A DNA stretch of 64,000 nucleotides from Blastomyces gilchristii SLH14081 (taxonomy: Eukaryota; Ascomycota; Eurotiomycetes; Onygenales; Ajellomycetaceae). The stretch spans positions 1,884,278 to 1,948,277 of the forward strand of contig NW_003101679.1 of the NCBI RefSeq assembly GCF_000003855.2. Reading direction: 5' to 3'. Below, in pieces: positions 13,356 through 64,000 of this stretch (within the stretch, counting starts at the first letter, position 1; each line of letters begins with the position of its first letter). Below the pieces are notes generated by a model. The model saw nothing but the letters and a program-made list of their open reading frames with translations, was not told the DNA's origin and did not search any database. The translations under genes and the position numbers were made by a program.

Positions 13356-15940
13356 ATGTCCTCCCGTGAAAACCAAGACTCTTCCGCCCCGATGGCCCAA
13401 CAACAACAGCAGCAGCAGCAGCAGCCACAACAACCACAGCCGTCCCCTCAACAGCAACCTCAACAACCACCACAGCGTCAGCAGCATCAGCAACAACAAC
13501 AACCCCCGCAGCAGCAGCAGCAAGGTCCGCCTCAGCAACAACAGCCGCCTCCAGGACAGGCTCAGCACTCGCCTGCCCAGGCCTCCCATCCCCCGCTAAA
13601 CTCGCCCTCGGCGGTGCAGCAAGCTGCTGCCGCCGCAGCGGCGGCTTCCGTTGTTACCCCAGTATCACTTTCACAGAATTTGAGTAGTGGCCCAACGCAA
13701 GGTGCTGCTGAGAACTTAGTATGCCAATGGCATGGTTGCCAAGACAGGCTTCCCACAGCTGAAGCCCTCTATGTGAGTGCTGTCTCTTGGTGTCTCGGCA
13801 CAGTAATCCACGTGATATCCAAGCAGGCCCCTTATATACTTGCTTGGATTATTCTGGCGCCAGCCTGCGCTTATGGATTTTGATAACATGACATTTGCTT
13901 GCCTTAGGTGTTGTGTTGTGGGTAAGAGAACCCTTCTACTATGCTAACGTATCGCATAAAACTTAGGAACACGTCTGTGAACGTCATGTTGGCCGCAAGA
14001 GTACCAATAACTTGAATCTAACCTGTGGATGGGCTAATTGCCGGACGACTACCGTCAAACGCGACCATATTACCTCGCACATTCGAGTTCATGTTCCCCT
14101 GAAACCTCACAAGTGTGATTTCTGCGGCAAGGCTTTCAAGCGTCCACAGGATTTGAAAAAACATGTAAAGACCCACGCGGACGATTCTGTCCTAGTAAGA
14201 TCCCCAGAACCCGGCCCTGGAGCAAGACCACCAAATGGAATGTTTGGTGTCGGTGTTGGCGCAGACGGAAAATGTAAGTTAGCTTCCTCCACCTTTTCAC
14301 CGTATTTAAATTTGCAACCGTATCTTTTGCTTTATCGTGCTAATATGACTTTGGCGACAGCCCATTATTTCGAGGGGTCATTAGGACCTGTCCCCGGACA
14401 AGCGTATCCGCACGGAGCTGCACAATATTATCCAAATCCCCACCCACAACACCCTTCCAATCAGTCGTATGGAAACGTTTACTATGCTGTTGGCAGCGAT
14501 GCGTCGCATCAGGCCTCCTATGAATCGAAGAAACGAGGATACGATGCTTTGAATGAGTTCTTCGGTGACTTGAAACGCCGTCAGTTCGACCCCAGCTCCT
14601 ACGCCGCGGTTGGGCAGCGGCTATTAAACTTGCATGGCCTGCCCCTTCCACTGGTTAACGGCGGTGCTGTTCCTGAGTACCAGCCGATGCCAGCCATGGT
14701 TAATGTCGGCGGCCATGGTGGCGGCTACCAGCCCGGCCCAATGCCAGCCCAGTCGTACCATTTGCCTCCAATGGGGAACCTTCGCACCAAGGCTGACTTG
14801 ATGAACATTGACCAGTTCCTGGAACAGATGCAGTCGACCGTTTACGAGAGTGATGATCACGTTGCCGCTGCTGGAGTCGCACAGCCAGGTGCCCATTACA
14901 TCCACGGCGGGATGAGCTACCGGAATACCGGCTCACCCCCATCTGCCACACATATCCCATCTAGCCACGCGACGGCTGCAACATCTGCTCCTATGATGAT
15001 ATCCTCGACTGCCACCCGTTCCTCACATAGTAGCACACCCGCTCTTACCCCTCCGTCCAGTGCCCAGTCCTATACTTCTGGCCGTTCTCCTATTTCCGTT
15101 TCCTCGACGCATCATACTGTTCCCCCTTCCCACCATCCTCAATCAAGCGCCGCGATGTATCCAACACTTCCAGCCACGACAGCCCAGGAAAACTCCACCA
15201 CGGCTTATCCAAGTATTTCAAGTGCAGCGCCGCCGTCGACTCTCAGCAGCGTATTTGAAAACGATGACCGTCGCCGATATACAGGTGGCATGCTCCAACG
15301 ATCCCAACCGCACTGTGTATCTGAGTCTTCCCAAATGTACCTCTCCCCATCTTCTAATACCGCACCTGCTAAATTTTCTACAAATGTCATCGACCCAGCA
15401 CTTCAACCAACAACGAAAACTGGGACACCGTCAGATCACGACTCTAGCTCCGAACGTGGTAGCCAAAAGCGCGAAAGCACGTCTAGCACGTCTCCGGACG
15501 CCGACGAAGCTTCCCGAACTGTAGCTGCCGCCGCTACGGTTGCAAACGCTACGACCGGCAGTGAAACGCAGGGCCACTCGGTAGAGCAGTGGGTAGCCAA
15601 CGTGCGTCTCCTAGAGAAACTACGGCTGTATATATATGAACGACTTAGTCGTGGTGAGTATGAGGATGATCCTACTGGTTCTAGTAATGTCACTACGAAT
15701 GAGATCGACAATATTAGGGACAGTCATGATGTTAGTGAGAGGATGGAAGGGATTGAGCTTGGAGGGAGGGCATCGTCTTCGCCATCTGCGTCTATCGACT
15801 CAGATAGGGATATGGGAAGACATAGGGCTGAACGGCGACAGGAGCGGCAACGGCAAGGGAGCACAGAGCCCAGTAGGGAGAAGGCGGAAAATGGGGGGAA
15901 TCTGTATCCGGTTCTGAAGGTGGACTTTGAGGAGTCTTGA
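13356..15940 (+). CDS. pacC: Alkaline-pH-responsive zinc-finger transcription factor PacC/Rim101
   Basis: PacC is made as an inactive full-length protein and is cleaved at alkaline pH to a short activator that binds GCCARG. Exons 13356-13772, 13967-14273 and 14361-15940 encode about 767 residues; both introns have GT..AG ends. The N-terminus has a glutamine/proline tract (about residues 15-70) and an alanine run. Three C2H2 fingers span about residues 123-210: the first begins CQWHGC and crosses intron 1 ([15 protein letters not shown]), the second is [19 protein letters not shown], the third [18 protein letters not shown] basic, conserved [18 protein letters not shown] segment follows near residue 300. 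Near residue 650 the conserved C-terminal [21 protein letters not shown] block is present, as expected for the region that keeps PacC closed. The gene sits 1 kb from the transposon mass but has normal composition. Confidence 0.96.
13398..13563 (+). repeat. CAA/CAG tract coding for polyglutamine-proline in PacC
   Basis: An almost pure CAR/CCN codon run encodes Q-rich sequence with P breaks directly N-terminal to the zinc fingers. Mixed CAA and CAG codons suggest an older tract rather than a fresh expansion. Confidence 0.9.
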
Positions 15941-21129: not shown

Positions 21130-24100
21130 TAAAAAAAGTTTAAAAACTCTTTAAAAATCATATTTATTCAAAATAATATGAATAGAAACTCAAATTGTAT
21201 TTATTCTTGTCTTCAAATTGTATTTGAATAAAAAGTTGATTTTATACTGCTTCAGAAGCCGAATTTTGATACTGAGTAAAAATATGTTATTTCTTATTCA
21301 AGCTACTACTGCTTTCTATCTCAAAAGTCTGAGATAAAGTCAAGAGTAGTGATCTATGGAAGAAAAAGATAAAGATATCAATTTAATCTAAGATTTGATA
21401 TCATGTCTGACTCTGATATTCTGATGAGTGATATTATAGATAAAGAGAATGAGTTTAATACTATACAGCTTATAAATATCTATAATGAAAAGTCATTGAA
21501 GAAAAATAACAATATCTGAATAATTAATAGAGAATTTCTGAACATAACTTCATTAAGAAACTCTATAATTGTAGAAGATTTTAATGCACATTATCTCTGA
21601 TAAAATTCAGAATGTAAAAGAGCAGTAAGAGCTGACAATCTAATTGAATAAATCTTTAAGAATTCAATAGATTTAGTTAACAAGTCTGATCAATAAACAT
21701 TCTTTAGAAATAATATGAAACAGAAATCTATTATAGATCTAATCTTCATATCATAAAATCTAATGAAAAAAAGACTTGTAAACTGATTTATTGATTCAAA
21801 TGAGACATCAGAATCAGGTCATGAGATTATTCAATTTAATATTGAACTGAGTGAAGAATAAATGAGTGAAAATCCTCTTCTCTCTAATCAGTTTAACTTT
21901 GAAAAAGCTGATTGAAAGGCAGTTGAAGAAAGTATAAAACTGTTAAAATCTGAAAGACAGAGTGAGTTATATGAAAATCCTGGTCAAGATATCTCAAATG
22001 AAATACTTGAGAATAGAGTGAAGCTCATTCCATCTATTATTCTAATAAATGTTAAAGATAATATTTCAAAGAGAAAGTCTTCTGAGTATTCAAAATCTTG
22101 ATGAAATGAAAATATCACATCTAAAAGAAAATAATTAGCTATAACTAGAAGAGATTGAAAGAATAATGTAATATCTGATAAAGAGTTCAAAGCTGTCAGA
22201 AATGAATATTTTTCAGATATTAAAAGAGCTAAAACAGACTGCTGAAATAACTTTCTTAAAGAAGTATAAGAAAAGAAAGTTTTTAAAGCTTTTAACTATA
22301 CTAAAATAAGAAGTGTAGCAAAACTTTCAGTCATAGAATATAAGTTTCAGAATGAATTATATATAGCAAACTCTTTTAAGAAAAAATATCAAGCTTTTAT
22401 AAGAACTCTCTTTCAAAACTCATCAGATTCAGATTTAGAGAAAGAGAATATATCACTTCTCAACTATATTAATGAAAATGACTGAGAATGGCCTGATCTT
22501 ACACAAGATGAATTAGAGTCAGCTATCTTCTCAAGTTCAGTTAAAACTGCTGCAGGGCCTGATTTAATTAATCACTTGATTATTCAAAATACATACTTCT
22601 ACTTAAAAAATGAATATTTTGAGCTCTTTTTTAATCTCTTTAAAAATGAATATCATTCTGAAGGCTGGAGAGAAGTCACTAAAATGATTCTTGTAAAACC
22701 TAATAGAATAACTTCAATTTCTAAGTCATATAGAGTAATATCTCTATTGAACTGTCTAGAAAAGGTTTTAGAAAAGATAATAGCTACTAGACTATCTTTT
22801 ATAAGCTTTATTAGTAATTCTCTTTTATTCAGTGAATAAATGAAAGATAGAAAACAATGTTCTGTAATTAATACTGTTCTCTCAGTTATTTATAATATTC
22901 AAATAGCAAAGTATGAAGATCTGGTCTCAACTGCAGTTTTTATTGATATAAAAGAAGCATTTAATCATGTTTCAAAGTCAAAGTTAATTCAGACTTTGAA
23001 GATGTTAAAACTGTCACTTTCTCTAATAAAATGAGTTAACTGTTTTATATCTAAAAGAATCATACAACTTTTCTTTGATAAAATGAAATAAGACAAGACT
23101 GAGATAAAAATAGAAGTACTGTAAGAATCTTCAGTCTCACTCATTTTATTTGCAATATATACTGCATATCTATTCAAAAATAGAAATATAAGAATAGTGT
23201 AATCTTCAAGTTATATGAATGATATTGATCTAGTCTACAGCTTAAAAACTATCAAAGAGAATTTGAAAGTGATTGAAAAAGCTGTAAAGAAAATCTTTGT
23301 TAGAGCAGATATCAATCAAATTCAATTTAATATGAATAAAACTGAGTTAATTCATTTCTTTTCTAGATTCAATGAGAAAGAATTATCTCTAACTCTTTTA
23401 AATAGAGAGATTAAACTCAGTGTAAATGTCAAATAATTAGAAGTATGATTAAACTCTAAGTTGAATTTTAAATATTATATTTAACAAAGAACTGTCAAGA
23501 CAGAAAGACTATTGAATAACATAATCAGACTATTAAATACAGAGAGAGGTCTATTCTTCCAGGCTATGAAACAGTTATATATAGCCTGTATTATCTCAGT
23601 AGCTGATTATGAAGTTCAAGTTTAATGAAATAATCAGGAGAATTTCACTGAACTCTTTCAAAGTGTGTAAAACAGAGTATTGAGAAGAATTCTTAGAGCA
23701 TTTAAATCATCTTCTATTAAAGCAATGAAAATTGAAGCTTCAATTCTTTCTTCTGCTATTAGATTTGAAAAGGTCTGTATGAACTATGCTCTGAGAGTTA
23801 TAAAGATAAGCTTAAATCATATAATCAGAGAAAGAGTCTCTTCTTCATTTTCATTAATTAACTCTGAAAATGAACTGGATTGAAATAGATTTCTTGATTG
23901 AAATGAAAATAATTCTTCAAAGAAAATGTCTTCTCAACTGTACAGACTATACTCACTGATTAAAAATCAATTTTCTTCTTTAAATGTTGAAAAAGTTAAT
24001 TATAAGAAGATATCTCTCTGAAGAGAAAAGCTTGAATCTCTTATAGACTTACAAATAAGTGAACTATCTAAGAAGAAGAAATATAAACAGCATTTGAAGA

Positions 24101-25065
24101 GAATTTCTACAATTAATATAGAAGACTCTATTCTGATTTATTCAGATGACTTCAAAAATGAGAATTTGAATAGATTAGACACAGACATTGCTTATACTGA
24201 AAATAATATCAATTTTATCTCAGATTTCTAAAATTTAGACTGTGAATCTGAAGTCTTTGATGCTGAACTATTTATAATGGTGAAAGCTTTCAAACTCATT
24301 GAAATAAAATCTCATAAAAGAGGAAATAGTTTGAAAGAGACATAGATATTCTCTGATAGTTAAGCTGCTTTAAAAAGACTTAGAAATAGTCAGATTTATA
24401 ATGATCAAATGAATCTTGAACTGATCTTAAACTCTGTTTTGAAAATTCAAAAGAGAAGAATATTAAAGCTGATAATTTATCTACACTGAGTTTCTGCTCA
24501 TATGAATATTCATGACAATGAATTGGCTGATTCAGCTGTAAAAAAGAGTTCAGAATTAAGCAGATCTATTCAAAAAATTGTGTCCTGATCTTTTATAAAG
24601 AGAAAAATAAAAGAATCTTGTTTAGACAAGTGAAATGAAAGCTGGCAGAATCAAAAGAAGAGTATATATTATTCAAGATTTAAAACAAAACCCAAGTGAA
24701 AATCTTGTTTAATTAAATGTAAAAAGAAAATATTCTCATCTATAATACAGCTGAAACTAGAACATGGCTATTTCAAATCTTATATACAAAGATTTGATGA
24801 TAGATTTGATTCAATAGAATGCTCATTCTGCAATGTAAATGAGAATCCTGAGCATATTATAATACACTGTGCATTATACAATAGTCTCAGAGTCAGATTG
24901 AAAGAGAAGTATAATCTAAATCAATTAAATATAAGATTCTTATTCTCAACTGAGACAGAAATTAAATACTTAATAGACTTTCTATCAGAAACTCAAGCAG
25001 CTATAAGAAAATAGCTAAATTCAGAAATATCTGAATATGAAGAGAAGGAAATTAATCAGATATAG
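21130..25065 (+). pseudogene. LINE ORF2 (APE endonuclease, reverse transcriptase, RNase H)
   Basis: Endonuclease remains include VEDFNAHYL (about 21570) and IIDLIFIS (about 21733). The reverse transcriptase shows KMILVKPNR, SYRVISLLNCLEKVLEKI, STAVFIDIKEAFNHVS and a degraded YxDD box read as YMND at about 23214. RNase H follows with EVFDAELF and IFSDS-AALKRLRNS at 24250-24390, then AHMNIHDNELADSAVK. A C-terminal Cys/His motif CSFCNVNENPEHIIIHC lies at about 24820. This domain order fits the Tad1/I group. The frame ends at the stop 25063-25065. Confidence 0.85.
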
Positions 25066-25355
25066 TCTGTTAAAACAGCTATATACTATCTTTTAATAAT
25101 TTGTTTTGTTACAGTCTCTCTTTACTTTATCTTTTTCTTTCAATTCCTTTCTATCTATCTATTTAATGTGTCTATCTTTAAGACTGTGTTCTCTTTTCTT
25201 TTGTCATGATATTGTTAAATGGTTTCAAAGTATCAGAAGATGTTAAAATACTGTAATTTGTAAACAGTTTTTATATTCTGAGCTGGAATTTTCTGATTTT
25301 GCATATCTGAAATTGGTGAATGTATAATAGTTAACTTTACAGATATAGGAAAAAC

Positions 25356-25410
25356 CCTGAGAACTAAAAGTTCTCAGGTAGATGTCATAGTCTCAGACTG
25401 CATACATCTA
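25356..25410 (+). other. Double hairpin in the LINE 3' UTR
   Basis: Hairpin 1 (25356-25378) is a perfect 10-bp stem CCTGAGAACT/AGTTCTCAGG with loop AAA. Directly after it, hairpin 2 (25379-25410) has an outer 7-bp stem TAGATGT/ACATCTA, an unequal internal loop CAT/GCAT, a 4-bp inner stem AGTC/GACT and a 3-nt loop. Nine bases separate it from the (AAT)n tail. The block recurs on the minus strand at 27675-27729, 40443-40497, 62123-62177 and 62931-62985. Confidence 0.85.
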
Positions 25411-27214
25411 TAATTGAAGAATAATAATAATAATAATAATAATCACTACATATCTGCACTGTGCTAAGCAGCTGAAAAAAGAAGAGATCTTATACATCTG
25501 CTTCTTCTCTCACTTCTATTATTTTCATTGTACCTGCAACAACAACTTCTATCTCTCTGTAAGTATTACTTTATAGAAAGATATTATGTCAGCTCTGATA
25601 AGAAGCTTAGATGCTTAAGTAGTACAGAGTAAGAGTCTCAGAGCTTCAAGTACTAATGAATTCTATTAAGACTGAGAAGGTCTCTCTTACTCATCTCTAA
25701 AAGAAGATAAAAGTGTGAGTCTCTGAGATGAAAAAATATCTCAGAATGACTGATCTTAAGAAGAGATTAGTCAGTACTGTTATTGAAAGTACTGCAGAGA
25801 TAAATCACTAATTAAAGAGAATCTCATTTCAATTGAAGCAGATAACTGAGATACTTTGTAAATTAATAAGTTAATACTTTATATATTTCACATACTCTTC
25901 TACAGCACTGCAGTACTAACTTCTCAGCAGATAAAGATGCTAATACTGAAGACTTCAATGATAAAGAATGAGTTTGATGAGAGTGTAATTATTAATAAGT
26001 AGACTCTGAGATTCTCTCTTTTTACTTTTTCTGCAGACTGTAGCTCTATTAGAATAACAGCAGCTCATGAATTGAAAATATTAGTCTTTGTATTGACTTC
26101 AAATATCTCTTTTCTCTAACTGCTTCAGGAATTTTACACTTGTATAGTCTTATTAAACTTCTAAAAACCTCTTTAAAAGAAAATAGAAGAAGAGTACTAC
26201 AGAGTTTATAAGACACTAACTCATTATCATGAGATTATCTCTAAAAAAATCCTTTGAGAAAAAATAAGAAGTCTTAAGCAGTATTTCTTACTTAACATCT
26301 CTGATATGTAACAGAGTAATCTCTACTAGCTGTCTTATAGCTTGCAATCTCTTTCTCAGCATTTTTCAAATGCTCAAGCAGTTCTCATGAATTCTCCGAC
26401 AATGAATAATCTTCTTATTTAACAAGATATTAAAGCTTACTGTAATATATTCACTTATTTAATATTTTCTTCACAAGACATTTGATATCACTCTCAATCT
26501 CAATATTATTCAGTCAAGGCAGCTCTGCCTCAGAGTATTACTTATAGAGCTTTAAATAGAAAATGTGAAAAACAGAATAAATTGATTTTAATTTTGAGAG
26601 TAACTTTAACTCATATATCTGTTTACTTATCACTCTTATTACTGAGAAAGATTCTAGTCACTACTTACTGAGCTTCTTACACAGTCTTATTATCTTGATA
26701 TTCTTTGCTGAAAGAAGTACTTGATTCTCTATCAAGAACTTTATTAAAATATGTTTTTAATTATAGTATTCTATCTGCTACTTCTGAACATAGTGAATAC
26801 TTTTCATCATCTTCTTATAAATTTTATTCAAAAGTTTCAATCTCACTTTTACTTCTGATACTTCTGATACTCTGTTCTCTGTATCTGTTTGATATTCTGA
26901 CTGTCTATTCTTCTCTTTGAAATGTCATTCACAATGTCACTGAGTAATGAAGAATTATATTCAAAATAAGTATAGAAAGAAGATATCTTTAAGATTGCAT
27001 TCTTCACATTGTTATATGTGAATTCAGTGATCAGAAGATGTGTGAGTCAATCATTCTGATAATATAAATAGAACACTTAAAGATGCTATTCTAATATCTG
27101 ATTTTAATATTCAGTCTGATTATCTATCTGCAGATGAAATGCAGTGCTGAGAAGATATCTTATTATAAGATGATAGTAAAAAGCTGATCAGTATTTGCTG
27201 ATGAAGAGAGATTC

Positions 27215-27648: not shown

Positions 27649-28723
27649 TTATTATTATTATTATTCTTCAATTATAGATGTATACAGTCAGAGACTATGA
27701 CATCTACCTAAGAACTTTTAGTTCTCAGAGTTTTTTCTATATCTGTAAAGTTAACTATTATACATTCATCAATTTCAGATATATAAAATCAGAAAATTCC
27801 AGCTCAGAATATAAAAACTGTTTACAAATTGCAGTGTTTTAACATCTTCTGATACTTTGAAATCATTTGATAATATCATGACAAAGGAAAAGAGAAAGAG
27901 AACACAGTCTTAAAGATAGACACATTAAATAAATAGATAGAAAGAAATTGAAAGAAAAAGATAAAGTAAAGAGAGCTACAGAACAAGATCTCTGCAGTTT
28001 ATATCTTAAGCTATATACATATTTTAACACTTTATATAACTGACTGCTATCTCTGTCCTCTCAGACCTGCTTCAGAGATTATCATTCTCTCTAAAGAATC
28101 ATCACTCAGCTAGCTTCTATAACTAGCTTACTTATAAGTGAGATTCTCACTAAGAATAACATCAGAGCTACTCAATTCTAGTTAAGTCTCTAATCTTTCA
28201 GCTGTCAATCTCAGCATTTCAGCCTATCAATTGGCTGTCACAGTCTTACTTATACTAATCACCTATTAAGAGTATCTAGGCCTCATCTCATCTAGGTCCT
28301 TGCTAGGCTCAGAGTGTCCTAATTAAATAGTTTTTAAATCTCATTCCCCGGAAGTGGGTGTCTAGAGTGAGAGGGATGAGACCTGGCCAGTTAAGCTTGA
28401 TGATGATTCACTATCCTGTGAGCACTCTAGACTCTAATCACTCTAGTACTGATCTAACTTGAAGTGTCTGAGAGGCTGTTAACTCTAAGATCAGTGAGAA
28501 TTAGTGCCTGGGAATTCTCAGGATGAATATCTTAAGCTTGATAATGATTTACTATAGTGCATCTGAGGGCCCCTGGTACTGTTTTATGACTTAACAGTGG
28601 AAGCTGTGATTAAGATGGCTCTCACAGGGTTCGAACCTGCCCCCTCTTAGCATTCATTCCCCGGGGGGAAGGCCGCTAATTGGGGCTCCATGGTAGCGTA
28701 GTTAACCACTACGTCACCGGGCC
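27649..28723 (-). mobile_element. Composite retroposon: tRNA-like head, unique body, LINE 3' end
   Basis: This is one insertion, because it is bounded by an exact 15-bp duplication ACTTCTGACATATCA at 27634-27648 and 28724-28738. On the minus strand the first ~110 nt (28723-28612) are tRNA-like. A ~640-nt body not seen elsewhere in the window follows, and the last ~330 nt (27975-27649) match the 3' UTR of the LINE including both hairpins and the tail. The body repeats a TTAAGCTTGATRATGATT-type segment at about 28396 and 28533. It interrupts Gypsy C between RT and IN. Confidence 0.8.
28612..28723 (-). promoter_or_regulatory. tRNA-like Pol III promoter region of the composite retroposon
   Basis: The minus strand starts GGCCCGGTGACGTAGTGG, with an A-box-like TGACGTAGTGG (28716-28706), and carries a perfect B box GGTTCGAACCC (28637-28627). 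The spacing of about 70 nt fits a tRNA-derived promoter with an enlarged middle. It is CpG-rich against an AT-rich background. Confidence 0.7.
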
Positions 28724-40409: not shown

Positions 40410-43400
40410 ATTATTATTATTATTATTATTATTCTTCAATTATAGATGTATGCAGTCAGAGACTATGACATCTACCTGAGAACTTTTAGTTCTCAGGGTT
40501 TTTCCTATATCTGTAAAGTTAACTATTATACATTCATCACTTTCAGATATGCAAAATCAGAAAATTCCAGCCCAGAATACAAAAACTGTTTACAAATTGC
40601 AGTGTTTTAACATCTTCTGATACTTTGAAATCATTTGACAATATCATGACAAAGGAAAAGAGAACACAGTCTTAAAGATAGGCACATTAAATAGATAGAT
40701 AGAAAAGAATTGAAAGAAAAAGATAAAGTAAAACAAAGACTGTAACAAAACAAATTATTAAAAGATAGTATATAGCTGTTTTAACAGACTATATCTGATC
40801 AATTTTCTCCTCTTTATATTCAGATATTTCTGAATTCAGTCATTTTCTTATAGCTGCTTGAGTTTCTGATAGAAAGTCTATTAAGTATTTAATTCCTGTC
40901 TCAGTTGAGAATAAGAATCTCATATTTAATTGATTTAGATCATACTTCTCTTTCAATCTGGCTCTGAGACTATTGTATAATGCACAGTGCATTACAATAT
41001 ACTCAGGATTCTCATTTGCATTGCAGAATAAGCATTCTATTGAGTCAAATCTATCATCAAATCTTTGTATATAAGATTTGAAATAGTCATGTCCTAGTTT
41101 CAGCTGTATTATAGATGAGAATATTTTCTTTTTACATTTAATTGAACAAGATTTCCACTTGGGTTTTATTTCAAATCTTGAATAATGTATACTCTTCTTT
41201 TGTTTCTGCCAGCTTTCATTTCACTTATCTAAACAAGATTCTTTTATTTTTCTCTTTATAAAAGACCAGGACATAATTTTTTGAATAGATCTGCTTAATT
41301 CTACACTCTTTTTTACAGCTGAATCAGCCAATTCATTGCCATGAATATTCATATGAGCAGGAACTCATTGCAGATGAATTATCAGCTTTGATGTTCTTCT
41401 CTTTTGAATTTTCAAAACAGAGTTTAAGATCAGTTCAAGATTCATTTGATCATTATGAATCTGACTATTTCTAAGTCTTTTTAAAGCAGCTTGACTATCA
41501 GAGAATATCCATGTCTCTTTCAAACTATTTTCTCTTTTATAAGATTTTATTTCAATGAGTTTGAAAGCTTTCACTATTGCAAATAGTTCAGCATCAAAGA
41601 CTTCACATTCACAGCCTAGATTTCAGAAATCTGAGATAAAATTGATATTATCTTCAGTATAAGCAATGCCTGCATCTAATCTATTCAAATTCTCATTTTT
41701 TGAGTCATCTGAATAAATCAGAATAGAGTCTTTTATATTGATTGTAGAAATTCTCTTCAAATGCTGTTCATATTCTTTCTCTTTAGATAGTTCACTTATT
41801 TGCAAGTCTATAAGAGATTCAAGCTTTTCTCTCCAGAGAGATAACTTCTCATGATCAACTTTGTCAATATTTAAAGAAGAAAATTGATTTTTAATCAGAG
41901 AGCATAGTCTGTACAGTTGAGAAGGCATTTTCTTTGAAGAATTATTTTCATTCCAATCAAGAAATCTATTTCAATCCAGTTCATTTCCAGAGTTAATTGA
42001 TGAAAATGAAGAAGAGACTCTTTCTCTGATTATATAATTTGAGCTCATCTTTATAACTCTCAGAGCATAGTTCATACAGGCCTTTTCAAATCTAATAGCA
42101 GGAGGAGGAATTGAAGCTTCAATTTTCATTGCTTTAATAGGAGATGATTTGCATGCTCTCAGAATTCTTCTCAAGACTCTGTTTTGCAGACTTTGAAAGA
42201 GTTCAGTGAAATTCCCTTGATTATTTCATCAAACTTGAACTTCATAATTAGCTACTGATGTAATACAGGCTATATATAACTGTCTCATAGCCTGGAAGAA
42301 TAGACCTCTCTCTGTATTTGATAGTCTGATTATGTTGTTCAATAGTCTTTCTGCCTTGACAGTTCTTTGTTGAAGATGATATTTAAAATTCAACTTAGAG
42401 TTTAATCATACTTCTAATCATTTGACATTTACACTGGGTTTAATCTCTCTATTTAAAAGAGTTAGAGATAGTTCTTTCTCATTGAATCTAGGAAAGAAAT
42501 GAATTAACTCAGTTTTATTCATATCAAATTGAATTTAATTGATATCTGCTCTAACAAAGATTTTCTTTGCAGCTTCTTCAATCACTTTCAAATTCTCTTT
42601 GATAGTTTTTAAGCTGTAGACTAGACCAATATCATTCATATAACTTGGAGATTGCACTATTCTCATATTTCTATTTTTGAATAGATATGCAGTGTATATT
42701 GCAAATAAAATGAATGAGATTGAAGATTCTTACAGTACTTCTATTTTTATCTCAGTCTTGTCTTGTTTCATTTCATCAAAGAAAAGTTGTATAATTCTTT
42801 TAGACATAAAACAGTTAACTCATTTTATTAGAGAAAGTGGCAGTTTTAACATCTTCAATGTCTGAATTAACTTTGACTTTGAAACATGATCAAATGCTTC
42901 TTTTATATCAATAAAAACTGCAGTTGAGACCAGATCTTCATGCTTTGCTATTTGAATATCATGAACAACTGAGAGAACAGTGTTAATTGCAGAACACTGT
43001 TTTCTATCTCTCATTTATTCACTGAATAAAAGAGAATTACTGACAGAGCATATAAAAGATAGTCAAGTAGCTATTATCTTTTCTAAAACCTTTTCTAGAC
43101 AGTTCAATAGAGATATTACTCTATATAACTTGAGAATTGAAGTTTTTCTATTAGGTTTTGCAAGAATCACTCCAGTGGCTTCTCTCCAGCATTCAGAATG
43201 ATATCCATTTTTCAAGAGATTGAAAAAGAGCTCAAAATATTCATTCTTTAAGTAGGAGTATGTATTTTAAATAATCAAGTGATTAATTGAATCAGGCCCT
43301 GCAGCAGTCTTAACTGAACTTGAGAAGATAGATGACTCTAATTCATCTTGAGTAAGATCAGGCCATTCCCAGTCATTTTCATCAACATAGTTGAGAAGTG

Positions 43401-58200: not shown

Positions 58201-59146
58201 AGTCAAACTGTCAGAGAAATTGAATATTCTTAATACTATGAAGAGATGATAATACTATCTTCTAAGAAGACTTACAAAGAATAAATCTGATGTTTTAAAG
58301 ATACTTACTGATGATGATATGAACAGTATGCTGGAACTGACATATCTACTAGATAATGAGACAGAACTTGTCAATGATGATATAAATAATTCTGTGAATG
58401 ATGAAGATTCTGTACTCAGTGTTCTTAATAATCATCTGATCACACTAGCAGAGGTCAAAAGAAGTCATGACTGAGAATATTGACATCAGACAATGAGAAA
58501 GGAAGTGGAAACTTTTGAACAGAAGAAGATATATATTATTGTTAAAAAGACTCTGAAAATGAACATTCTTACAGATAAATGAGTGTATGATTGAAAATTA
58601 AATAATAAGAATGAAATTATCTACTTTAGAGCTTGTTAAGTAATTAGAGAATTCCTACAATAACAAGATATTTATTATAATAAGTTATATACAGCAGTGA
58701 TATCTGAATCTACATTATGAAGCTTATTCACTATATCAATAGCAAGAGGTTGAAAAGTCAGATTAATTAACTATATATCTGCATTTTTGAATGAGGTATT
58801 GCCTCAGAATGAGATGATATTTATACAACTACTCACAGAGATCAAGCACAGTTATAATGAATTAGTAGGGCTTATACATCAGAGCTTATACAGAATGAAA
58901 CAGACAGTAAGAACATAATATTTTCTTATAACAGAACACTTGATAAATCTAGAATTCAAGATCTCATCATATAATAGTGAATTTCTTTATTATTCAATTC
59001 ATAAGTTATTCTTGACACTACATGTCAATGACTGTTGAATCACAGGGCCTGAAGAGAGTGAAATTGAGTGAATTTTGATGAAAATCAGAAAAAGATTTGA
59101 GACAAAAGAAGTTGAACAGAATAAATCTTATCTGAGAATGAAGATC

Positions 59147-59523
59147 GCCCCGGTGGCCGAATGATTAATGCGGCCACCCAGTAGCGCCTTGGCGTGGGAA
59201 ACCAAGGCGCGTGGGTTCGAAACCCGCAGAGGATACATTAAATCCGGAACTCAAGCACCTCAGGTTTCTAATAAATACAGAGGTGTACAAATCACTCCAA
59301 TGAATCACTCTATGTTCCTGGGCTGAGAAAGTTATTATTGCATGTATCTAATTGTCACTCCTTTGTATTTTCCTATGTTCTTGTTATCTTGGCGTGGTCT
59401 CAACACCTGTATTTCCTCCTGTATAATCAACACTTGACCTGTATTTAACATCACGCAAGGACTCATCATAAGCTCCGCTTGCATATGAGTATAATGAAAG
59501 AATAATAATAATAATAATAATAA
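59147..59523 (+). mobile_element. tRNA-derived SINE, well preserved
   Basis: 377 bp bounded by an exact 14-bp duplication TGAGAATGAAGATC at 59133-59146 and 59524-59537. The head resembles a class II (Ser/Leu-type) tRNA: A box TGGCCGAATGA (59154-59164), a long variable-arm-like stem CGCCTTGG/CCAAGGCG, and a perfect B box GGTTCGAAACC (59214-59224). A ~240-nt body follows, then a hairpin at 59461-59490 and an (AAT)n tail 59501-59523. It keeps many CpG sites although the surrounding Copia has lost them. Confidence 0.93.
59461..59490 (+). other. Hairpin at the SINE 3' end
   Basis: Outer stem ACTCAT/ATGAGT, internal loop CAT/GCAT, inner stem AAGC/GCTT, loop TCC. Ten bases then lead to the (AAT)n tail. 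It has the same architecture as LINE hairpin 2 at 25379-25410, with different paired bases. Confidence 0.8.
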
Positions 59524-60606
59524 TGAGAATGAAGATCAAACATCAGAGAAATGATAATCTAGTAGTTATACAGAGTCATTATATTGAGAAGATTCTTGAA
59601 GATTTCAGTATGAATAAAGTGAATTCTGCAGAGATCTCTATGATGACAGATATACAACTGAAATTTTCACCTGATGAGAATGATGAATTGAATAATAACT
59701 TTATAACTACAAGATATTGTCAAGAATTGAGATCATTGCAGTATTTAATCACAAGCAGCTGATCAGATCTGATATTCACAGTTAACTATCTCTTACATTT
59801 TAACTCACATTTATACAAAGTATGTTAAGCAGTATTGAAGCATGTTCTATGTTATGTCAAGAAGATGAAAAACCATGACATATTGTATAAGAAGAAGATA
59901 GAAGATGGCCTGAGTTCTGTGACATACTATAATTCAGACTGAGCAGGGGCAGATCTTCAATACAAATTGACTACTGACTATATTATATTGATTAACAGAT
60001 CACTGATCTCATAGCAGTTGCAGAGACAGATATCTATTATCAAATCAATTATAGAAGCTGAGTATATTGCAGCTAGTGAGATAGCTTGTGAGATAATCTG
60101 ATTGAATAATATATTATATAATACTAAATTGATGAATAATGAAAAAGTAAAAATATGCTCATATCTATGAGTTAATAATAAGAGAGTAATCAATCTAGTA
60201 AAGAAGAAATTCTTAATATGAAGATTGCATCATATCAAGATTAAATATCATATTCTTTACAATTTGATTGAAAAAGAGGAAATCATGATGAAACATATTG
60301 ATTCTATAGTGAACATAGCTGACAGACTCATCAAGTCACTGGCGAAGCCTGCATTTGAAGATTTTATTAAAAGAATTGATTTGAAAGAGATCAGAAAGAA
60401 ATGATTGAATGATAATAATAATACAGTGAATCAGTGAATTTTACATGTATTTCTTGATTTTTACAGTTATTACTGTACAGACATCTTTTCTAATAAGGAA
60501 ATGAAGATCTGATTAATGTAATTAAGTATTATTGCATTTTCAAAAGATTTGAGAATGAGAGAGGCCCCGGGTGGCAGCTTATAGACCACAGTGTAGCAAG
60601 AGAGAG

Positions 60607-62096: not shown

Positions 62097-62906
62097 TTAT
62101 TATTATTATTATTCTTCAATTATAGATGTATGCAGTCAGAGACTATGACATCTACCTGGGAACCTTTAGTTCTCAGGGTTTTTCCTATATCTATAGAGTC
62201 AACTATTATACACTTATCAATTTCAGATATGCAAAATCAGAAAATTCCAGCTCAGAATACAAAAACTGTTTACAAATTGCAGTATTTCAACACCTATTAA
62301 TACTTTGAAACCATTTGAAAATATAATGACAAAGGAAAAGAGAACATAGTCTTAAAGATAGACATATTAAATAGATAGATAGAAAAGAACAGAAAGAAAC
62401 AAGTACAGTAAAGAGAGACTATGACAAAATAAAATTATTAAAAGATAGTGTATAGCTGTTTTAACAGACTATATCTAATCAATTTTCATCTCTTCATATT
62501 CAGATACTTCTGAGTTGAGCCATTTTCTTGTAGCTGCTTGAGTTTCTGATAGAAAGTCTATTAAGTATTTAAGTCCTGTCTCAGTTGAGAATAAGAACCT
62601 CATATTTAATTGATTTAAATCATACTTCTTCTTTAATCTGACTCTGAGACTATTGTATAATGCACAATGTATTATAATATGCTCAGGATTCTCATTTGTA
62701 TTGCAGAATGAGCACTCTGTTGAATCAAATCTATCATCAAATCTTTGTATATAGGATTTGAAATAACCATGTCCTAGTTTTAGCTGAATTATGAATGAGA
62801 ATATTTTCTTTTTGCATTTAATTGAACAAGATTTTCACTTTGATTTTATCTCAAATCTTGAATAATGTATGCTCTTCTTTTGTTTCTGCCAGCTTTCATT
62901 TCACTT
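62097..62906 (-). mobile_element. LINE copy 3, 3' end
   Basis: The (TTA)n tail at 62097, the double hairpin at 62123-62177, the 3' UTR and the ORF2 C-terminus. It runs into copy 4 at a TTCACTTAT motif, so copy 4 is probably inserted in it and the rest lies beyond the window. The hairpin-1 arms here keep GGG/CCC bases that other copies have lost. Confidence 0.85.
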
Positions 62907-64000
62907 ATTATTATTATTATTCTTCAATTATAGATGTATGCAGTCAGAGACTATGACATCTACCTGAGAACTTTTAGTTCTCAGGGTTTTTCCTATATCT
63001 GTAAAGTTAACTATTATACATTCATCAATTTCAGATATGCAAAATCAGAAAATTCCAGCCCAGAATACAAAAACTGTTTATAAATTGCAGTGTTTTAACA
63101 TCTTCTGATACTTTGAAATCATTTGACAATATCATGACAAAGGAAAAGAGAACACAGTCTTAAAGATAGACATATTAAATAGATAGACAGAAAGGAATTG
63201 AAAGGAAAAGATAAAGTAAAGAAAGACTGTAACAAAACAAATTATTAAAAGATAGTATATAGCTGTTTTAACAGACTATATCTGATTGATTTCCTCCTCT
63301 TCATATTCAGACATTTCTGAATTTAGCCATTTTCTTGTAGCTGCTTGAGTTTCTGATAGAAAGTCTATTAAGTATTTAATTCCTGTCTCAGTTGAGAATA
63401 AGAATCTCATATTTAATTGATTTAGATTGTACTTCTCTTTCAATCTGGCTCTGAGACTATTGAATAATGCACAGTGCATTATAATATACTCAGAATTCTC
63501 ATTTATATTGCAGAATGAGCATTCTATTGAGTCAAATCTATCATTAAATCTTTGTATATAAGATTTGAAATAGCCATGTCCTAGTTTCAGCTGTATTATA
63601 GATGAGAATATTTTCTTTTTACATTTAATTGAACAAGATTTTCACTTGAGTTTTGTTTCAAATCTTGAATAATGTATACTCTTCTTTTATTTCTGCCAGC
63701 TTTCATTTCACTTGTCTAAACAAGATTCTTTTATTTTTCTCTTTATAAAAGATCAGAACACAATTTTTTGAATAGATCTGCTTAATTCTGCATTCTTTTT
63801 TACAGCTGAATCAGCCAATTCATTGGCATGAATATTCATATAAGCAGAAACTCAGTGCAGATGAATTATCAGCTTTGATATTCTTCTCTTTTGAATTTTC
63901 AAAACAGAGTTTAAGATCAGTTCAAGATTCATTTGATCATTATAAATCTGACTATTTCTAAGTCTTTTTAAAGCAGCTTGACTATTAGATAATATTCATG
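62907..64000 (-). mobile_element. LINE copy 4, 3' part, running off the window
   Basis: The (TTA)n tail, the double hairpin (62931-62985), the 3' UTR and ORF2 from its stop (near 63276) up into the RNase H domain at the window edge. The C-terminal ORF2 part is open at 63276-63479. Confidence 0.88.

Follow-up and report, generated by a model that had tools for sequence, protein, structure and literature searches.

The LINE and the SINE of the window

The window analysed here is the whole stretch of 64,000 nucleotides at G000:C4:1884278-1948277, from an assembly of 74.8 Mb in 75 contigs. It contains a mutated LINE, further LINE tails and a SINE (Table 1). A pacC/RIM101 gene is located at 14012-15940, and its product shows 95% identity to the Blastomyces dermatitidis protein and 89% to that of B. 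silverae, which places the host in Blastomyces or its near kin, order Onygenales. The clade of the window LINE is presumably Tad1, an assignment that follows the literature on the genus. Blastomyces genomes are described as large, with AT-rich tracts that are rich in Gypsy elements and hold fewer Tad1-like sequences (PMC4595289).

Table 1. Features of the LINE and the SINE, with window coordinates
Feature	Position	Strand	Basis or remark
LINE, mutated, many stops	21301..25443	+	5' coordinate is the start of reading, not a mapped end
LINE reverse transcriptase match	22720-23379	+	RVT_1 at 41.8 bits, with X in place of stops
LINE hairpin 1	25356..25378	+	no counterpart in the SINE fold
LINE 3' hairpin 2, corresponding to the SINE hairpin	25379..25410	+	fold, alignment, covariance-model search
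LINE linker TAATTGAAG and (AAT)8	25411..25443	+	sequence
Further LINE tail with hairpin	27663..27706	-	structural score and covariance models
Further LINE tail with hairpin	40431..40474	-	structural score and covariance models
SINE 5' target-site duplication, 14 nt	59133..59146	+	second copy at 59524-59537
SINE: tRNA-like head, body, hairpin tail, (AAT)8	59147..59524	+	sequence; genome copies
A-box-like stretch of a type 2 pol III promoter, candidate	59154..59164	+	by eye
B-box-like stretch GGTTCGAAACC, candidate	59214..59224	+	by eye
SINE 3' hairpin	59461..59490	+	fold, alignment, covariance-model search
SINE linker ATAATGAAAG and (AAT)8	59491..59524	+	sequence
Further LINE tail with hairpin	62111..62154	-	structural score and covariance models
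Further LINE tail with hairpin	62919..62962	-	structural score and covariance models

The LINE is of the non-LTR type, with an RVT_1 domain and with 5'-short copies that carry (AAT)n ends. An RNase_H match (50.8 bits) was obtained in a better preserved sister copy (L062), and a Pfam search of the window copy gave no endonuclease score. Protein relatives of the LINE are present in Emmonsia crescens, at 53% over 43% of the query, and in Trichophyton equinum, at 40% over 96%, in both cases without 3' ends. A genome contig set gave no match to the LINE protein, which means little for a set described as bacterial/archaeal. The best 40 of 1829 LINE 3'-end candidates scored 96-100%; the window copy accounts for the 100%, and the totals are minimum figures. 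Target-site duplications were sought in 10 LINE copies and measured 11-17 nt in four, 7 nt in one and 8 nt in one; the remaining four comprise one copy with a 7-nt match off the junction and three copies without a duplication. A clear duplication is therefore lacking in 6 of the 10. The (AAT)n end has a mean of 6.6 units in 30 LINE copies.

The SINE carries two marks of its class, flanking target-site duplications and a 3' end made of simple repeats. The A-box and B-box stretches of its head were chosen by likeness to the consensus of the two boxes. No tRNA was called in the SINE by ARAGORN, nor by Rfam at E up to 10, and no Rfam family exceeded its cut-off anywhere in the window. A first look yielded 1146 SINE candidates genome-wide, of which the best 40 scored 96-100% to the window copy; the 100% match is the window copy itself. 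The scored copies are the closest ones, and the counts are to be read as minimum values. An exact 35-mer of the SINE occurs 389 times in the genome. Duplications of 13-16 nt flank 26 of 30 SINE copies; by the criterion used, L003, L008 and L029 have none and L004 has one of just 5 nt. The (AAT)n end was found in 29 of the 30 copies by a strict pattern (L028 fails), with a mean of 7.7 units in those 29. No match between the LINE and SINE bodies upstream of the tail rose above noise. The duplications and the common (AAT)n end fit target-primed reverse transcription of both elements by one kind of machinery, which need not be the same enzyme.

Fold and alignment of the 3' hairpin

The tail of the LINE reads TAGATGT-CAT-AGTC-TCA-GACT-GCAT-ACATCTA, TAATTGAAG and (AAT)8 (25379-25443), and that of the SINE reads ACTCAT-CAT-AAGC-TCC-GCTT-GCAT-ATGAGT, ATAATGAAAG and (AAT)8. 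An earlier note on this DNA had described a hairpin common to both, and the two hairpins indeed lie where it placed them and adopt one common fold. RNAfold gives each an outer stem, a 2x3 internal loop, a 5-bp inner stem and a 3-nt loop, with energies of -9.0 kcal/mol (z -2.50) for the LINE and -7.4 kcal/mol (z -2.79) for the SINE. With flanks (45 nt), the z-values are -2.04 and -1.63. The earlier note had given the internal loop as CAT on the 5' side and GCAT on the 3' side; these letters are the same in both hairpins, but the loop itself is CA / CAT by RNAfold, since each hairpin has a U.G wobble between the T of CAT and the G of GCAT. Its further claim, that all unpaired bases are identical, holds for the internal loop and fails at one of the three apical-loop bases and at two linker positions. 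The apical loop is TCA in the window LINE, TCT in the commonest LINE form and TCC in the SINE. The two linker differences of the window copies are reduced to one when the LINE is compared with the commonest collected SINE form, TATAATGGAAG. Both tails run through this short linker into the repeat, as the note had described, and the repeat is (AAT)8 in the window LINE and in the window SINE.

The two tails align over 44 ungapped columns, of which 28 are identical (9 of the 22 paired and 19 of the 22 unpaired). The differences are concentrated in the stems, with 13/22 paired columns differing against 3/22 unpaired ones (Fisher p 0.004). The paired bases nevertheless still pair, which bears out the earlier reading of the stems: six stem pairs have changed at both bases, and each family retains the pairing. 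Three of the six are transition pairs and three involve transversions. The outermost pair is T-A in the LINE and G.A in the SINE.

A structural score that counts pairs and unpaired identity reaches 39 for the SINE, compared with a maximum of 32 among 2000 dinucleotide shuffles of the SINE and 32 at the best place of the window outside LINE and SINE tails. By a plain ungapped sequence score the resemblance is modest, and 22 of 3000 shuffles are as good. A 3'-end module with a stem-loop is thus present in both elements, and the smallest shared module seen is hairpin 2 plus linker, because the SINE fold shows nothing like hairpin 1 of the LINE.

The 7 distinct LINE tails served to build a covariance model, which was searched against the window and 30 SINE loci. 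This LINE-only model finds the SINE tail in 29 of the 30 loci, with 25.7-36.9 bits and E-values of 2.5e-5 to 0.0067, and also matches an additional SINE within L015 and the window SINE copy (which is L001). Its best match outside LINE and SINE tails has 21.9 bits (E 0.045), which is below every SINE-tail score. The locus missed at default settings (L004) scores 31.8 bits with filters off. Under default filters, a structure-free model of the same LINE rows detects none of the SINE tails at E up to 10; with filters off in four of the 30 SINE loci, the tails reach 10.3, 6.2, 5.4 and 3.4 bits, and other matches reach up to 10.7. In the opposite direction, a model of the 7 SINE forms finds the LINE tail in all 36 LINE loci (one being the window copy) at 30.9-37.5 bits and recovers all 5 LINE tails of the window, with 16.7 bits for the best other match. 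The E-values of both models are rough. Since the structural models find each other's family and the sequence-only model does not, the resemblance of the tails is carried by structure more than by sequence. The searches in both directions, together with the paired changes, support the earlier view that the LINE and the SINE have a conserved RNA structure in common. The phrase "by shape, not by sequence", under which that view was put forward, is sound in its first half and too strong in its second, most letters of the loop, internal loop and linker being common to both tails.

Copies, covariation and rival sources of the SINE tail

The fixed letters of both hairpins were used as a pattern and occur at 1872 places genome-wide, with 0 for the reversed control. 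The collected copies of both families keep the hairpin, the lack of which in other SINEs the earlier note had named as a counter-case: 45 LINE and 35 SINE tails lie within 5 substitutions and fall into 7 distinct forms each. These counts comprise the collected loci plus the window, whose two copies recur in L001 and L031. No tail intermediate between LINE and SINE was seen among the collected tails or the listed motif places. The LINE form of hairpin 2, with 0 to 2 substitutions, is present in all 6 fetched 3' ends downstream of reverse transcriptase matches; these six were picked by length class and few stops among 150 listed of 3909 candidates.

Across the 14 distinct tail forms, 94.0% of the cells are paired, and 6 of the 12 pairs differ at both partners yet remain paired. 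When the partners are slid by 1-3 columns, pairing falls to 20.8-48.2%. The number of double-change pairs is not unusual under column shuffles (145/500), and the pair types are fewer than in the shuffles, all 500 of which have as many or more. Pair types are few because the rows form just two clusters. The covariation is therefore one contrast between two lineages and not a series of many independent events.

One LINE subfamily (L064, G000:C16:1203400-1206000) has a diverged 3' UTR, with 138 of 168 aligned bases identical, and a hairpin 2 plus linker that is identical at 44/44 positions despite this divergence. This points either to conservation of the LINE stems by sequence as well or to a recent renewal of the tail. 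The letters of its hairpin 1 are CCCGAGACC/GGTCTCAGG, as against CCTGAGAAC/GTTCTCAGG in the other LINE; at about 1136-1159 of the locus this hairpin has C-G in place of an A-T pair and one mismatch. The locus also contains 100 N inside the LINE 3' region, an upstream UTR unlike that of the other subfamilies and, downstream of the LINE, one SINE and a second LINE tail.

Eleven variant copies (5 LINE and 6 SINE), picked by patterns that exclude both known forms, were fetched. At least one newly broken pair occurs in 10 of the 11, and Watson-Crick repair in none (0/11). In L077 the changed place is occupied by a T.G pair, and a single T.G is found among the broken pairs of L076. Such decay of mutated single copies is expected. 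Four LINE copies (L068, L069, L070 and L071) have the same outer-stem break, T-A to T.C, despite differing hairpin 1 flanks; they may represent a small subfamily copied with the broken pair or a recurrent change. A tail that had lost one outer pair was perhaps still copied.

Mutation of C to T is prominent in these repeats. In a comparison of 31 rows (LINE copies L031-L060 and the window copy, which enters twice, as itself and as L031) with L061, 62% of the LINE differences are C>T or G>A. By context, C>T was counted 24 times on 2 CpG sites, 359 times on 36 CpC sites and then 615 times on 198 CpA sites, so that the rate per site is highest at CpG and CpC. Classical RIP prefers CpA. The classical CpA RIP indices of the LINE, 0.84 and 1.54, are not raised by the usual thresholds, although C>T dominates. 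In two places, the LINE-type C1:2663247-2663281 and the SINE-type C1:2738375-2738409, one stem pair is changed on both arms, from G-C or C-G to A-T or T-A. Host mutation can therefore mimic compensatory change, and the three transition pairs are weaker evidence than the three transversion pairs.

Patterns keeping the fixed letters of the hairpin were used genome-wide and revealed no non-SINE carrier of the SINE hairpin and no third hairpin family, within a search that would miss a LINE also sharing bases upstream of the hairpin. A different LINE family matching the SINE tail by plain sequence, the counter-case named in the earlier note, was likewise not found genome-wide with the patterns used. 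The 7 and 5 matches of two patterns that exclude the known forms proved to be point variants of the LINE or the SINE. The eleven variant copies described above are all 7 of the first and four of the second; the fifth of the second, C26:341608, is a mutated SINE. Another pattern gave one SINE-like place with an inserted base. Further patterns gave scattered singletons, with matches against the reversed control of 7 vs 5, 10 vs 1, 8 vs 2 and 0 vs 0; one of the 7 matches (of 7 vs 5) is a SINE variant. Two near-identical places, C2:284984 and C2:5144439, match TCATAYN7RTGCATA, are included in both the 10 and the 8 matches, and lie outside the LINE and SINE families; by eye they misfit the stem. 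The tail pattern has no match in bacterial, archaeal and viral contig sets, which says little given those taxa.

The SINE might instead owe the sequence of its tail to a different LINE lineage that had its own version of the hairpin and is now extinct here or survives in a related species, in which case the present LINE would be only a cousin of that partner. The collected forms are uniform in both families without intermediates, LINE subfamilies retain their own hairpin sequence, and the partners listed by Ohshima share 3'-end sequence (PMC3747384), all of which agrees with such a source. Against it, the SINE hairpin was not found outside SINEs, although by patterns that would miss LINEs alike further upstream, and the LINE form is seen at every one of the six fetched LINE 3' ends. 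The best 40 of 1146 SINE candidates match the window copy at 96-98%, and clear duplications flank 26 of 30, from which it follows that a partner was active rather late. On this evidence, a source in another LINE is rather unlikely. Convergence, by which unrelated tails were fitted to one reverse transcriptase and acquired the hairpin without common descent, would explain why 13 of the 22 stem columns differ, but it is very improbable in view of the ungapped register, the identical internal loop and the near-identical linker over 44 columns. A chance likeness of two AT-rich hairpins, with the paired differences as by-products of C-to-T mutation on both arms, can draw on the two single copies in which a stem pair changed on either arm at once, the prevalence of C>T/G>A and the modest plain sequence score, but is hardly credible given three pairs changed by transversion, a structural score reached by none of 2000 shuffles and models that find each family from the other.

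Proposed recognition of the hairpin and known LINE/SINE pairs

The hairpin is well supported as a shared RNA structure, and the mechanism behind it is proposed on that ground. The two elements are probably a LINE of the stringent type and a SINE that parasitizes it, the tail being recognised by the hairpin on both RNAs; recognition by the reverse transcriptase of the LINE is most likely. The LINE protein would recognise the 3' end of its own RNA through this shape, consisting of an outer and an inner stem, an asymmetric internal loop (CA on one side, CAU on the other) between a U-A and a U.G pair, and a 3-nt UCN loop. The hairpin would be followed by UAUAAUNNAAG and by AAU repeats, which would serve to prime target-primed reverse transcription, and the SINE, bearing the same module, would be copied in trans. 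We infer a common origin of both tails, after which paired changes would have set the stem letters of the two lineages apart, with the geometry and most loop letters retained. Paired drift of the stems and the constancy of most loop letters suggest that the protein reads the shape of the stems but the sequence of the internal loop and linker. The broken pairs of the variant copies slightly lower the weight of hairpin recognition by this LINE and slightly raise that of a tail taken from another one.

It is also possible, though put forward tentatively, that one LINE protein accepts two tails that are alike only in geometry, internal loop (CA/CAU, U.G), most of the apical loop and the linker. 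The key would then be the internal loop plus shape, unlike the apical loop of L2 elements, and the stems would drift under host C-to-T mutation while most pairs hold. The pair represents a natural stem-swap experiment, in which two abundant families have one hairpin with over half of its paired letters changed, and it points to the bases that a fungal LINE protein likely reads. A minimal tail is suggested as well, since the SINE folds without hairpin 1 of the LINE. The copies also carry a warning that, in repeats under C-to-T mutation, joint change on the two arms of a hairpin does not require selection.

Several systems of this kind have been described. In monocots, L1s and the SINEs of maize and sorghum have about 50 nt of 3' end in common, which forms a hairpin with compensatory stem mutations and a conserved 5'-UCU-3' loop and flank (Ohshima, PMC3747384). 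The Blastomyces pair is similar in its shared 3' hairpin, compensatory stem changes and conserved letters. As far as the available part of that paper goes, the monocot pairs belong to the L1 clade of plants and have about 50 nt of apparently related sequence, whereas the present LINE is fungal, has RNase H, and its conserved core with the SINE is the internal loop and the 3' linker, with an (AAT)n end. Among fungi, Mg-SINE/MgL and SINE2-1_BG/Tad1-24_BG have been listed (PMC3747384), and the 3' end of AfuSINE2-1a from Aspergillus fumigatus resembles the LINE I-1_AF by sequence (PMC5063351). These pairs consist of a SINE of the tRNA-derived type, as the Blastomyces SINE may be too, with a 3' end resembling that of a fungal LINE. 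The likeness of AfuSINE2-1a to I-1_AF is one of sequence, without structural covariation described in the available part of that report, and the other two pairs are compared by their table entry alone. For human L1 and Alu, recognition of 3' stem-loops has been argued at the level of structure and not of sequence, with fungal Tad1 pairs cited (PMC5135761). In the available part of that work, the likeness is a loose structural one, in a poly-A dependent L1 and without register-exact covariation, unlike the Blastomyces pair. The earlier note knew of no such description for an onygenalean LINE and SINE; among the titles listed by searches of open PubMed Central papers none covers an onygenalean tail pair, but the kind of phenomenon is already known. 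The pair is a further case of known LINE/SINE tail sharing, with the internal loop rather than the apical loop constant.

The 3' stem-loop is also a feature of UnaL2 and the ZfL2 elements, in which the LINE protein recognises it, stem exchange is tolerated and the loop is specific. The SINE partner of UnaL2 is named UnaSINE1. In the zebrafish elements ZfL2-1 and ZfL2-2, a swapped stem with the cognate loop retrotransposes, at about half the rate for ZfL2-1 (Hayashi et al., PMC4176376). Disruption of the stem or a change of the loop abolishes or strongly lowers retrotransposition of zebrafish L2 LINEs (PMC4176376). According to the available part of this literature, UnaL2 and ZfL2 belong to the L2 clade and the apical loop is recognised, whereas in the Blastomyces pair the third base of the apical loop varies and the internal loop is constant.
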